Assembly (NCBI RefSeq): GCF_052324685.1
Contig: NC_135211.1
Span: forward strand, 12,774,913 to 12,838,912
Direction: 5' to 3'
Origin: Brachyhypopomus gauderio
Lineage: Eukaryota > Chordata > Actinopteri > Gymnotiformes > Hypopomidae
DNA: 64,000 nt
Part shown: positions 8,403-63,949 of the stretch, one piece after another
How the letters are laid out: each line of letters opens with the position of its first letter
Position numbering within the stretch: position 1 is the stretch's first letter
The notes under the pieces: model-generated
Databases searched by the model: none
Told to the model about the DNA's origin: nothing
The model's input: the letters and a program-made list of their open reading frames with translations, nothing else
Position numbers and translations under genes: made by a program

Positions 8403-11044
8403 TCTGTCTCCTGTGAGGGATTCAGGGTGGCCTCAGGGACCTGTTGAAAAGTGCAGCCTGTCCTCAGTCTCAGCTGCCTGTTTGTCTCAGATCAAAGCCA
8501 GAGGCTGATCTTAAAGCTGGCAGATCTCATGCCCAGCAGGGCGATGGGTCCCCCTGCCCACCAAGCAATGCTGCATGTCTAATGGAGGACGACAGGAAAC
8601 CTCTGTGTTAGTGAGCTAATGCAGCTACCTCTGCCCTGTGCTAAGGAACACAAATGCACAAATACCTTCCCAAACATCCCAGGCAGACTAGCACTGCAAG
8701 TGAGCAAGAAATGTTTTTATCCTGCCTGATATCAGATGTTCAAATGTGCCATTACACCAGTTGTTAGTACAGTGCACTAGAAATACAGATCTAAATCGAT
8801 ATTTGATATTATGTCATTTCAAATGTCTTTGGGCATTAGCACTGCCCCCCTTTCTTTTTTTATATTATAACATAGTGTAGTACTTGCCATAACATCAACC
8901 ATTTATATTCACAATAGGTACTGTATGGGACTCCTTATCATAAGCCATGATTACCTTGTGCCCATTATAAAGTAGACATTAGCTGGACTGTGCTTGGTGC
9001 AGTGGGATCGATGTTATTGTCTCATCGCTGTCTCATTTCCCGATGCTGTGTCTCACACCCTGCTCTTGCGTCTCTGCTTCACAGCCTGCGGGGTGGGCTG
9101 AGGGGGGCGGAGCCAGTCGTTCACTCAGGGTGCACCGGCAGCTGGGTTTTAAGAACGAGTGGGCCTCGTGGAGCGGCTGGTCCGAGTGCTCGCGCTCCTG
9201 CGGGGGAGGGGCGTCCATCCGCAGACGTACCTGCATCGCCAGGTAGCTAAAGCCTCTCCTCCGAGGCCTCGTTCAGGCCTCGAGCGGTGCTGCAAACCGA
9301 ATTTATAAAAATACATGTCTTGTTAGAGTGTTACAGCAGCCCTTAATAATGAACCTTGTTCCATTCATTCATTCATTTGTATTTCTGTGTTTTAGGAATC
9401 CAGTTGGAGAACCCTGTTTAGGTGAACCCAGGCAGTATAAGATCTGTAATCCCAAGGTAAAGGTTTCCAGATTAACATAACCTTGATTGGTCCTTCATGT
9501 ATCACATAATTGTAGATAGACCCTAATAAAGCTGTCATACCACAGAGATGAGGGTGTTTATGGAGTGCACCAGCAGGACCAGCCCTGACTGCATTAATGA
9601 TGCACTGACTGAGACCTCCTGAGCGAGTTCAGGCAGGCTGCGTGTGTGTCTCTGGGTCCGTCACATTGATCCGACTCTCTCACGCAGGACTGTCCTGCCG
9701 GATCCGTAGACTTCCGAGAACTCCAGTGCAAATCTTTCGACGACAGGCCCATAATGGCAGGCGTGACATACCGGTGGACTACGTTTCACAGAGGTCAGTC
9801 AGGCGCGGTGCACGGCCTAGACGTGTGCGGTTAAGATGTTCTGCCATTCGGGAGTGCTCAAAGCTCGGGGCTCAAGACCCTCTGGGTTTCTACCCCCGCC
9901 CTCTTCTCCCAGGTTCCGACCCCTGTGAGCTCAGCTGCCTGGCCTTGGGGCACAATTTCTACTACAACTTTGGGCGAGTCCTGGATGGCACACCCTGCGC
10001 TTCGGACCCCGGGGCCGTCTGCGTGAACGGCAAATGCCTGGTGAGTGACAAATGGAGCGAACAATGCGTCTTGTTTCAAGCCTACTCCTTCTGCCGCACC
10101 TCCTGCCTCCTGCCTCTCCTCATGCTGTAGCCTCCTGGGCTTGGGCTGGAGATGGTTCTGCCTGGGTCTGTCTGTCTGACGATGCCGCTAGTGCAGCGCT
10201 GCTGCTGTGATGTAGTTAGACATTTTAGCTTCTCAGGTTTAAGCTCCCCCTCACTTGCCATTAAAAACACACAGTGCTAAAATGTATGTGGAGAAAGGTA
10301 TCAAATAGAAGGGTTTCCCTTGATCAGTGAAAACATTTCATTTGGGGGCTTGTTTTATTGAAAATATGTGTTGTGTTTCTGAAGAGTAAAAAAAATTATG
10401 TAAAGGTGAATTTCTGGAGTGTGAAGTCAGTAATATCCTTAAAGGACTTGGGGATGGAGAAGGAGTCTGACAGGGAGGAGGTGGAGGTGAAGCAGAAGGA
10501 GTCTGATAGGGAGGAGGTGGAGGTAAAGCAGAAGGAGTCTGATAGGGAGGAGGTGGAGGTGAAACAGAAGGAGTCTGATGTGGAGGAGGTGGAGGTGAAG
10601 CAGAAGGAGTCTGATAGGGAGGAGGTGGAGGTGAAGCAGAAGGAGTCTGATAGGGAGGAGGTGGAGGTGAAACAAAAGGAGTCTGATAGGGAGGAGGTGG
10701 AGGTGAAACAGAAGGAGTCTGACAGGGAGGAGGTGGAGGTGAAACAGAAGGAGTCTGATAAGGAGGAGGTGGAGGTGAAACAGAAGGAGTCTGACAGGGA
10801 GGAGGTGGAGGTGAAACAGAAGGAGTCTGACAGGGAGGAGGTGGAGGTGAAACAGAAGGCTGAGGGGCAGGCTGTGTGGGCTAGATTGAGTCCAGACCCA
10901 GTGTGAGGAAAAGCGCTATGCAGCATGAAACACAGACCTTGTATGTGTGTGTGTGTGTGTGTGTGTGTCTGCTCCTGAGAGGGGCCTCTCACACACACTG
11001 TGATGTGTTAAATTCCTTGATTAATGCCCTTGTCTTGGGTGTTG

Positions 11045-56611: not shown

Positions 56612-56698
<87 letters not shown>

Positions 56699-59611
56699 AT
56701 GTTGGGGGAGTATAATCACTCGGTGCTCTGCTACGAGCAGGCGCTGCAGGCCCAGCCGGCCTTCGAGCAGGCCCTGAGGAGGAAGCACGCCGTTCTCTGT
56801 CAGCAGAAGCTGGAGCAGCGGCTGGAGGCCCAGCACCGGTGAGAGGGGGAAAGGCCTTGTCTATAAGGGTGGGGGCTCAGCACCGGTGAGAGGGGGGAAA
56901 GGCCTCGTCTATAAGGGTGGGGGCTCAGCACCGGTGAGAGGGGGGAAAGGCCTCGTCTATAAGGGTGGGGGCTCAGCACCGGTGAGAGGGGGAAAGGCTC
57001 CGTCTATAAGGGTGGGGGCTCAGCACCGGTGAGAGGGGGGAAATGCCTCGTCTATAAGGGTGGGGGCTCAGCACCGGTGAGAGGGGGAAAGGCTCCGTCT
57101 ATAAGGGTGGGGGCTCAGCACCGGTGAGAGGGGGAAATGCCTCGTCTATAAGGGTGGGGGCTCAGCACCGGTGAGAGGGGGAAAGGCCTCGTCTATAAGG
57201 GTGGGGGCTCAGCACCGGTGAGAGGGGGGAAAGGCCTCGTCTATAAGGGTGGGGGCTCAGCACCGGTGAGAGGGGGGAAAGGCCTCGTCTATAAGGGTGG
57301 GGGCTCAGCACCGGTGAGAAGGGGGAAAGGCCTCGTCTATAAGGGTGGGGGCTCAGCACCGGTGAGAGGGGGGAAAGGCCTCGTCTATAAGGGTGGGGGC
57401 CCAGCACCGGTGAGAGGGGGAAAGGCTCCGTCTATAAGGGTGGGGGCTCAGCACCGGTGAGAGGGGGGAAATGCCTCGTCTATAAGGGTGGGGGCTCAGC
57501 ACCGGTGAGAGGGGGGAAAGGCCTCATCTATAAGGGTGGGGGCTCAGCACCGGTGAGAGGGGGGAAAGGCCTTGTCTATAAGGGTGGGGGCTCAGCACCG
57601 GTGAGAGGGGGAAAGGCTCCGTCTATAAGGGTGGGGGCTCAGGAAGCAGGCACTGCTTTTTAGTTGCTTATTTTTCTCTCCCAAAAGGGTGTTACATGCT
57701 CAGAAGAAGAAGTCCATGGCTTGGGGGTTTTTGAATACTCTAAAATGATTTTTCATGCTGATCAGTGTAGTGGGTTTGGTTTTAGTTTCTAGCGGTTTTC
57801 TTTTGCCTGTTAGCTTGACGTACAATCCCTGACATAAGTTCTGTCGCTTGTCCATGTTGTGGAAACAAAAGCTTTGTATAATTGAGCATGTTTGGGGTAG
57901 GATGAAAGAGGAAAGGCTTGGAAGACAAAACCAAATAATTTTGAAAACCAAAGAACTCTGGGAGGCATGTAAGACTGCATTCTTTGCTATTGTATGAATC
58001 ATTGTCGACCCGCATGGATGCGGTCCTTCAAGCTCGTGGAAGTCACACAAAATATTAAATATGGCTCTAATAGCACCACAACATCATTCACCAGTGTTAT
58101 GAAGCATATATTTGTATATGAAGTGAATTATTTGTTTGATTTTCACCTTACTTTCTGTTGGCGACAAAACCTTTGTCTTGCCAAAATCTGACCTTTCTGT
58201 GTTCATTAAATGATCAATATTTCTGCAGTAAAGCAAATTTATTTTCGTAAATTAAATCTCATTTGGGAGGGTTTCAGCTTTCATACGAGTCATTTCGAAA
58301 ACCAATCGATGAGTTTAAAGTCAGGTTATAAGCTTGTTTCCACAACATGGATAAGCGACAGAACTTATGTCAGGGACTCTATTTGCCTAATAATTTTGTC
58401 TAGGCCTGTAGCAGAATTAGCTAACACACAATCCAGTGTCTCTGCTACAGTGTGTGAATTTGAGCCGTAGAACCCATGAATGCGACTCCCCCGCCAGGTC
58501 TCTGCAGCGCACGCTGAACGAGTTGAAGGAGTACCAGAAGCAGCACGACCATTACCTGCGGCAGCAGGGCACGCTGGACAAGCACAAGCTGATCCAGGAG
58601 GAGCAGATCTTGAGGAACATCATCCATGAGACACAGATGGCCAAGGAGGCGCAACTGGGTGAGGATGACTCCTTACACCCGCTCCACCCGCTCCACGCGC
58701 CCCAAACACCCGCTCCACGCGCCCCAAACACCTGCTCCACGCGCCCCAAACACCCGCTCCACGCGCCCCAAACACCCGCTCCACGCGCCCCAAACACCCG
58801 CTCCACGCGCCCCAAACACCCGCTCCACGCGCCCCAAACACCCGCTCCACGCGCCCCAAACACCCGCTCCACGCGCCCCAAACACCCGCTCCACGCGCCC
58901 CAAACACCCGCTCCACGCGCCCCAAACACCCGCTCCACGCGTCCTACACACGCCCTACACCCGCTCCACCCGCCCTACACACGCCCTACACCCGCTCCAC
59001 GAGCCCTACACACGCCCTACCCACCCTACACACGCCCTACACCCGCTCCACGAGCCCTACACATGCCCTACGCATCCCCTACATCCCTTCCTCACACACC
59101 CCACATGCCCTACACACACCCCACACACCTACACACATCCCACATGCCCTACACACACCCCACACACCTACACACACCCCACACACCTACATCTGCCTCA
59201 GACAATAGAGCACCTACCTAAGCACACGCCCTGCACACACATGCTGCACAGTGAGCCTGGGTAAACAGGTAGCACAGTTCTCTCATTCTTTCATTCTTTC
59301 TTTCCCTTTTTTTTGGCTCCCATTGAGTGTGCTTCTGTCTTTCTATCTAAGGCTTTAACTGAATTGTTTTCTTATGTTTATTTCAGGCAACCACCAGATG
59401 TGTCATTTAGGCCAGCAGCAGTCTAGCCTGTTCTGCCCGTTTGACTTGCCCGTGCGTTATCACCGCGGAGAGCTCTTTGAGAACGTGCATCACATCCAGG
59501 TGTGCTCTCTCTTCACAGCGTGCCTCCACCGCGCACACACACACGTCCTGCTGACTCCCTCTTTTAAGAACCCTCATTTGCAGCCACAGAAAAACTGCAG
59601 CACAGTCTCCA

Positions 59612-59676
<65 letters not shown>

Positions 59677-62600
59677 TTTGGAGAGGAGGTGTCCATAGCC
59701 AGCAGTGTGGCTCTGGTGTCAGAGCTGAGTATGAACGAGAGCCGAAGCCCCCAGCCCTACTCCTCTGTGTCTGGTGGAGAGGAGTCAGCAACACGCTGGG
59801 CCAGGGAGTCCTCCTCCCCTTCCAGTGCTGTGAGTCTGCCTGCCCGTATTTACACTCTCGCAGGGAGCGGGGATTACCTCTCTCGTGTTAGTATTGTAGT
59901 TTGTCCTCTTCCATGTACGTGGTGCTCCGGCGCTGGCCCCTAAGGTGTGTGTGTGTGTGTGTGTGTGTGTAACCAGGAGACTCATAGTGTGGTGTGGCCC
60001 AGGAGAGCAGACTGCACCCAGCGTTTCCCCTCCATCCCCCCCGCTCACCTGCTGCCCACCTTCTTCCTCCCCCCCGAGAGCCATGGCTTTGGGTAACACA
60101 CACACACACACACCAGAGATGTTGAAAATTTGCAAAATACAGTTCCAAGTCAAGTCACAAGTCTTTAGGCTGGAGTCAAAGTCAAGTCACGAGTCAATAC
60201 CCGGATAAGCTTGGGGGCAGGAGACGAGATGTAAAAATAACTGTTTTATATATTATCTTTATATCTCCTATTGTCCTCCGTCCCCCATTATTGGCCACTT
60301 CCACGTATTGCGTATATTCTGTGTCTCTTATCACCAATACTGTAAAAAAATGTAAGCTTCTGTCTTAGAATGACATTTAAACTTTATTTTAGCAAAAAAA
60401 TCACATCTGAAAACTATTTAAATATCACAAATTTTGCGTGTTGTATAAAACACATCACTTATTTTCTTTCCGCAATGGTTATAATTAATTATTCTCAATA
60501 CCTAAAATGTCGATGGTTGTTTTGATGTTTGTTTATAAGTGGCAACTATGCTAATTCAGGCTACAACGGTGGGTGTACTGACAGCTAAGTCGCTAACATA
60601 AACTAAACAAACCTATCCGGGTGTGTTTTTAGGTGCCTTATGAAGTTTGATGTGGTCGTTCCAGTGTCTTTATTTTGTTTCCCACATTCTTTACACATCG
60701 TCGGCCGTCGGTTTTGTCCAACAAATTTAAATTCCATATATCCAAAGGCTCCACGTACTGTACTGCAGCCGAAACCATGGCAACCGCGTTTGTTTTGACA
60801 GTTCTCTCCGATTTCCCGCTTGCAATAAGCAATGTTGTAATACGTCACGAGAAAAGGGGCTGTGTCCCAAATCACGGAAACAAAAGTAAGGAATAATGAC
60901 AAAATGAATAGAAAGTGTTTTTTTCTATACCTCACACACAGCGCCTGGATAACAGTCTGACTCTTATTGTTAGGGACGAGTTTCAAGTCATGTCTGAAGT
61001 CTTTTTGTAGGCGACTTAAGTGCGATTTCGCCACAAGTCGCTCACTCGAGTGCCCATCTCTGTTGCACACCAACACACATCACACAAGTCAGATCAGCCC
61101 TCGCTTTATGTACCCGCGATTATCTTGACTTGCAACATTTGTGCATTTTGCGTTTGAAAGTTTCACCATTTAGTATGCATTTAGTATCGTGAAACAACAT
61201 GATTTCAGTTCCTGCGAGACAATCGACCGAGCGCTTCTTGATTCTTACTTTATGCCTAGGGCTGAGAGCACCCTGTATGCGAACAGGACCCCGCCCAAAT
61301 CATCAGAGCCCCCAGACTGCAGTTCTAAAGTTGAGCTGTCGACTGATGACCGTCTGGACTCTGTGTTCTGGGGGCTGGAGGGGAAGGATCTCCCCGACCA
61401 ACATGCCACTCAGGTGGGCCTCCCACTTCCTGCTTCATGACATACAAACCACTGAGTGGTCGTATGAGATGAATCGAGTTGCGGCTTTAATTGAATTCAG
61501 CTGCATGTAATTAAAGGTAAACATCCTCAGCTCAGATGCTGGTAAGAATGGCGTCTGTTCAGTTACGCGCTGGAGCGAAACCATGCGGTCACCGAACATG
61601 CTCGGCCACTGCACAGCAGGTGCAGTGAAGTCACAGGCTGTTATGGATCTCGGGCAGTAATTTCATCTGGGTTCTTGACTAAATTATGGATCCAGTGTGC
61701 TTTCCTGTAATATTAATGTGTGTGGTGGGTCACCGCATTTAAAGCATGATCTGTAAATGCCACTAAAATGCCCTTAGACTGCTAAAATGTAAAACATTAG
61801 AGCTAACGATGTCAAATCCATTTACTCTGTGGGATGTGGCAAAGTTATTACCTCAGCAGATAGGTGTCTGATATGTAGGAGTGTATTATTTTCACAAGTG
61901 AAGTAAGTGTGTGTGCGTGTGCGTGTGCTACAGGTACTGCTAAGACGTAGTGGTGGGTGGAGTCTGGAGCAAACCGGTGCAATGATTGCACACGCCATGG
62001 AGAAGGTGAGGACCAGCAGCCCTGTCCATGATGACGAGGCCAGTGCTGTATGAACCTGCTTCTGCCCCGCCAAAGCAGTCCGAAGGCCTAGAACCTGACG
62101 GGGCAGCATCTCTGCCTCAGCAAAAACCCTCCACAGCATACACAGACTAACCGATTGAGGACCGTATGAGTCAGGACTATGTCATCAGGGCTTGAGCAGT
62201 TTTCTGGGGTTTTTTTTGTTTGCTTTAGTTTTTGTTTGTTTTATTGGCTGACTGTGGCGTACCAACACGCTTACTGCTTCTCTTTCAACAGCTGTAGTTT
62301 CAGCCTGTAGGTTTAGTGGTTTTGAAGCCACTAAAGCCACCGATTGATTTAGTCCGTTTCTCTCCTGCCGCCCGTCTGGCGTAGGCGAGCGCCCCCCGGT
62401 GGCTGCTACAGAACGAGGCGGGCCTGTTCTGGCGGGCCCGGGGAAACGCCACACAGGCCCTGCAGTGTTCGCGTCAGGCGCTGCACGCGGCCCCCCCCCA
62501 GCACAGGGACGTGCCCCTGGTCAACGCCGCCAACGTGCTGCTCCACCACGGCCTCCACCGCGAGGCCCACGACTTCCTGCAGCAGGCCCTGGAGCTCAAC

Positions 62601-63874: not shown

Positions 63875-63949
<75 letters not shown>

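Follow-up and report, generated by a model that had tools for sequence, protein, structure and literature searches.

A 5' splice site repeated 17 times by a minisatellite that begins at a coding exon end of TTC17 in Brachyhypopomus gauderio

Turri, Cuin and Porter are said to have found in 1995 that a minisatellite of the human IFI6 gene (6-16, G1P3) provides multiple splice donors. Two of its downstream repeat units are stated to be used, giving different isoforms (PMC4526556), and this minisatellite is also mentioned in another source (PMC3618361). A second described system is the intron-18 VNTR of the human ABCA7 gene: its unit measures 25 bp, its first GT is the exon-18 donor, and retention of one unit makes up about 2 +/- 1% of isoforms, unaffected by VNTR size, with the percentage assigned by the order of the text (PMC5954066). 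Tandem repeats at exon-intron boundaries are furthermore described in human segmental duplications (PMC2812944). With ABCA7 and IFI6, it is already established that minisatellites can contain or provide donors.

Here we describe a new example, an array at the donor of the TTC17 exon called 8, which is distinguished by copied exonic context, by unusually faithful decoy donors and by a single stop codon that all decoys share. The two arrays are alike in that each begins at the exon's own donor and in that splicing from the GT one unit further on retains an extra unit and throws the product out of frame, an outcome that is predicted for TTC17. They differ in the unit (25 bp versus 47/48 bp) and in their start, which the description of ABCA7 places at the GT, whereas the TTC17 array takes in between 5 (exact register) and 16 (similar) exon bases, so that the -3 to -1 context has been copied as well. 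The common stop for all decoys also sets TTC17 apart from ABCA7; length variation and its effects were measured in ABCA7, while the TTC17 array is known from the sequence of one assembly. With IFI6 it shares repeat units as alternative donors, which in TTC17 are predicted decoys; however, downstream units of IFI6 are said to give different isoforms, whereas every TTC17 decoy would truncate the product. The segmental-duplication cases resemble it as minisatellite expansions that alter gene structure at borders, but those are described as having produced novel introns or longer exons (PMC2812944), whereas in TTC17 the border of the intron is retained and decoys are added. Literature on the TTC17 array was not apparent from titles and abstract openings in 20 of the 43 papers matching TTC17 and minisatellite, which does not prove its absence from print.

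Exon 8, whose number we adopt as a label from the initial annotation, occupies positions 56699 to 56838 on the plus strand of the window, by which we mean the whole analyzed stretch of 64,000 nucleotides. It is 140 nt long, starts in phase 0 (ATG TTG GGG GAG), ends two bases into a codon (CAC CG|) and encodes MLGEYNHSVLCYEQALQAQPAFEQALRRKHAVLCQQKLEQRLEAQHR, the final residue of which is completed by the next exon; the exon upstream of it ends ...LGNIYA. The next exon (58498 to 58658, plus strand, 161 nt) reads SLQRTLNELKEYQKQHDHYLRQQ..., its opening being SLQRTLNELKEYQ..., and is continuous with exon 8 in frame and phase across an intron of 1659 nt, 804 nt of which belong to the array. The joined exons 7-9 match the TPR_2 model above its Pfam cut-off (E 7.6e-08) and four other TPR models below theirs. 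The locus thus has a TPR-containing product and a frame that runs through three exons; we take it to be TTC17 on the strength of the human protein sequence, in agreement with the initial annotation. When the genome was searched with exons 8 and 9, five candidates were scored and two matches emerged, both in TTC17; the full-length product therefore appears to need the first donor of the array. No TTC17 paralogue that could serve as an outgroup was present among the scored candidates. The window sits on a 55-Mb contig of a genome that comprises 796.5 Mb in 840 contigs.

Exon 8 is preceded by a (TC)40 microsatellite with the acceptor AG (56617 to 56698, plus strand), whose perfect repeat (56617-56696) forms the pyrimidine tract. 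Both splice signals of this exon consequently lie inside repeats of an often length-variable kind, (TC)40 upstream and the donor array downstream. Several other features of the surroundings caught our attention. A 22-bp minisatellite with 11.7 copies and 99% matches starts 26 nt beyond the donor of the next exon, TGG|GTGAGG at 58659 (58659-58941 for the donor and repeat together), and more C-rich repeats extend from there to about 59190. At 63882-63947, a (TC)32 tract stands immediately 5' of an open frame, VEVVVDSNGSGEVGQHER..., which may belong to TTC17 as a later exon whose pyrimidine tract is a microsatellite. A minus-strand open frame at 60606-61079 has the look of a BED-type zinc finger (RPTMCKECGKQ...SNFIRHLKTHP) and may be what is left of a hAT transposon in a TTC17 intron. 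Further away, a stretch at 10331-10903 that is open on both strands contains a 36-bp repeat with 11.2 copies (10458-10859), in frame as KESDREEVEVKQ, and an open frame about 83.0 kb from the window start, some 17 kb past the last TTC17-like frame seen, resembles the start of HSD17B12, which would match the synteny with TTC17 in human.

The initial annotation had proposed that a 5' splice site was amplified about 17 times as a minisatellite, and this is borne out by the array at 56823-57642 on the plus strand, for which Tandem Repeats Finder reports a period of 48, 17.2 copies and 94% matches. Its 17 head-to-tail units of 47/48 bp, to which an 11-bp tail adds, each carry the donor CCG|GTGAGA and fall within the size range of minisatellite units (about 10-100 bp). 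In the exact register CACCG...CTCAG, 17 whole units run from 56834 to 57642, and the 11 exonic bases ahead of this register show nine matches out of 11 with the end of the unit. The unit had also been said to start with the last eight bases of exon 8 and its donor; these bases, CAGCACCG, beginning at 56831, are indeed identical in all 17 units, and the likeness extends eight bases further into the exon, so that the final 16 bp of exon 8 fall within unit 1, 14 of them (counted from 56823) matching the usual unit. The 10-mer CACCGGTGAG occurs 17 times on the plus strand of the window, every time inside the array, and never on the minus strand; donor-to-donor spacing is 47 or 48.

Units diverge from one another by a mean of 4.4%, and variation is confined to 7 of 48 aligned columns. 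This low divergence is consistent with a recent or homogenized array, and the minisatellite is probably young. The units fall into ten distinct types in irregular order; a higher-order organization was looked for and discarded, because repeated mixed blocks span at most two units, a length that 10095 of 20000 shuffles also reached, and duplication of blocks is thus not in evidence. The array is G-rich (G4Hunter 1.04, GC skew 0.42) and contains no canonical G-quadruplex motif with loops of up to 7 or 12; R-loops or a non-canonical G4 are possible. When two to four units were used to query the animal's own genome, with the best candidates scored and very common words skipped, all seven matches listed were to the array itself. 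No exact 22-mer match was found in viral contigs, a search from which records very near the window were possibly excluded.

The 9-mer CCG|GTGAGA (-3 to +6) is identical in 17/17 units. Donor 1 occupies 56836 to 56844 on the plus strand with its GT at 56839, and the first bases of the GTs of donors 2-17 (56886 to 57602, plus strand) lie at 56886, 56934, 56982, 57029, 57077, 57124, 57171, 57218, 57266, 57314, 57362, 57410, 57457, 57505, 57553 and 57601. By a donor matrix, each scores 8.45, and each has a U1 pairing energy of -8.3 kcal/mol; further units thus carry donors of a strength equal to that at the border, and the 9-mer does not pick out donor 1. On the same scale, the donors of the neighboring exons score 4.67 (-7.1 kcal/mol) and 7.23 (-9.8 kcal/mol), and another intronic GT, at 57969, scores 7.45. 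Each of the 17 units has in addition a weaker donor-like GT, AGG|GTGGGG (score 6.29; 17 places from 56869 to 57631, spanning 56869 to 57632 on the plus strand), which the initial annotation had not listed. The possibility that the units act as 5-nt micro-exons (AG|CACCG|GT) was rejected on sequence grounds, since they lack a pyrimidine tract.

What distinguishes donor 1 is the reading frame, by which its authenticity was judged: spliced from donor 1, exon 8 reads on in frame into the next exon (EAQHR|SLQRT), which it does from none of the other 16, and donor 1 is the sole frame-keeping donor of the 17. Read in frame with any array donor after the first, the first stop comes after 47 codons in 16/16 cases and is one and the same TGA (56840 to 56842, plus strand), the 48th codon counted from the start of exon 8. 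All decoy products end there because the border CG|G TGA places a stop across the original donor. Donors 2-17 would add between 47 and 762 nt, a multiple of three in five of 16 cases that still stop at the shared TGA, and any other GT beyond 56842 would include this stop as well. The border unit had been presented as the first copy with about 16 decoys of the same exonic context downstream, and 16 further identical donors are what we found; the accompanying expectation that decoys add frame-shifting or stop-containing sequence holds in a stricter form, each decoy (16/16) truncating the product at the one common TGA, without variety among the products. Array length should consequently change only the share of stop-containing transcript and not the kind of protein. 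Skipping of exon 8 (140 nt) or of exon 9 (161 nt) would each shift the frame.

To gauge chance expectation, we analyzed 18 control stretches (180 kb, including 2913 bases N) for arrays with a period of at least 12 and at least four copies. Among the 33 minisatellites found, two carried a donor-like 9-mer with a score of at least 8 in at least 0.7 of their units, and their best scores (9.3 and 9.2) exceed the 8.45 of the TTC17 array; by eye, no exons were seen flanking these two. Under the same criteria, one of the five arrays in the window is donor-like, namely that of TTC17. GT sites that score at least 8.45 number 109 of 7870 on both strands of the window, the 17 of the array included, and 169 in 360 kb of control strands (0.47 per kb). 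Donor-like units alone are therefore not rare and arise by chance; the distinguishing mark of the TTC17 array is that its first unit is the end of a coding exon.

We favor, with a probability of about 0.72, a reading in which the array is an intronic minisatellite seeded at the border, with donor 1 dominant and slight leakage to a single stop followed by nonsense-mediated decay (NMD). Donor 1 would be used almost always, as it closes an exon of 140 nt, while the decoys would create exons of 187 to 902 nt with internal G-runs. Exon definition and G-runs both bear on donor choice; a literature search on these effects found no paper. Use of a decoy, perhaps at a few percent by analogy with ABCA7, would put TGA straight after the border codon, and the resulting transcript is expected to undergo NMD; copy number could then alter at most the amount of TTC17 mRNA and not the kind of protein. 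Predicted local accessibility of donor 1 exceeds that of the median decoy at all four folding-window sizes (by 0.76 to 1.58 log10), yet that of donor 1 itself is at most 0.011, one decoy is more accessible at a folding window of 70 and decoy 2 at 240. RNA structure that hides the decoys was accordingly set aside as a weak explanation, partly contradicted by these exceptions.

Alternatively, the array might have come to lie at the border by mutational chance, with decoys that are never measurably used and TTC17 unaffected. The abundance of minisatellites in the control, their occasional donor-like units (2/33), and the presence of other repeats near TTC17 exon borders are all in keeping with this view. 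However, some leakage is expected of decoys that copy exactly a donor which has to function, and later units are reported as used in IFI6 and ABCA7. We regard a wholly silent array as somewhat unlikely; it overlaps with the border-seeded reading, the two being distinguished solely by how much leakage occurs, so that the probabilities of the two are not mutually exclusive.

An appreciable use of donors 2-17, such that copy number sets the stop-containing share and tunes TTC17 dosage between alleles, strikes us as improbable; it had been raised in the initial annotation, together with possible competition for U1 and possible length variation between individuals. The equal 9-mer strength of the 17 donors and the additional weaker GT in each unit would suit such a regulatory role, and longer ABCA7 VNTR alleles are associated with reduced expression and increased skipping of the following exon (PMC5954066). 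The same study, on the other hand, places use of the next unit's GT at about 2% independent of length, and the invariance of the donor 9-mer gives no indication of selection, since just 7 of 48 columns vary and most of the unit is equally invariant. More speculative still is a length-dependent valve in which 17 equal donors would share U1 and copy number would set what proportion of the TTC17 transcript NMD removes, the protein being unchanged. With its upstream (TC)40 tract, exon 8 would have both splice signals in length-variable repeats.

As to the origin of the array, its period is bounded by an imperfect direct repeat of 11 bp with 9/11 matches, the exonic arm of which, TGGAGGCCCAG, lies at 56823 to 56833 and the intronic arm, TGGGGGCTCAG, at 57632 to 57642, the final bases of the array (both plus strand). 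This arrangement points to birth by slippage at a microhomology, and such a slip, if it led from the intronic arm to the exonic one, would give exactly the junction observed, CTCAG-CACCG. Among the 130 11-mers of exon 8, agreement with the intronic arm at nine or more of 11 positions occurs in a single case, at the array edge, compared with five of 56811 in window positions 1-56822; these rates serve as a guide rather than a strict test, given that the arm was chosen post hoc, after the array had been seen. Before the array arose, TGGAGGCCCAGCACCG|GTGAG would have been followed, some 31 bp into the intron, by a single TGGGGGCTCAG. In this state an imperfect 11-bp direct repeat would already have existed, with one arm at the exon end and the other starting 47 bp further into the intron. 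Replication slippage or strand misalignment between these arms would have copied the donor with its exonic context, an event whose direction we infer along with it, and later slippage or unequal exchange would have lifted the copy number to 17 units. The exon-intron border as the founding copy is the best reading of the sequence, since the frame runs uninterrupted through the exon bases and the exon/intron microhomology bounds the period.

The converse order, in which an intronic minisatellite came first and its edge overwrote the exon end, bears on origin and not on splicing behavior; the question of artefact below is likewise a separate one. A conversion tract would likewise leave 14 of 16 exon bases shared with the usual unit end, and one unit (57394) has the same C as the exon at one of the two positions where exon and usual unit disagree. 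The exon 8 frame nevertheless runs unbroken into the next exon, and at these two positions the later units have the intronic arm's base in 16/16 (first) and 15/16 (second) cases. We also count against it LEAQHR-SLQRT, which is conserved in human TTC17, and altogether consider it very unlikely that the array preceded the border. That the array or its copy number was wrongly assembled is very unlikely, for although there is a single assembly and the array exceeds short-read length, it lies within a 55-Mb contig and its ten irregularly ordered unit types are unlike what would result if one unit had been assembled in a loop.

The array counsels caution at minisatellite borders, both in annotating genes and in analyzing splicing from short reads, and it suggests a route by which such arrays may be born, namely microhomology across an exon border. 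It also provides a naturally occurring row of 17 donors behind one exon, their -3 to +6 positions identical and their surroundings nearly so. With a readout that stops at one codon for every later donor, the TTC17 array would offer a clean case for position alone deciding the choice of a 5' splice site.
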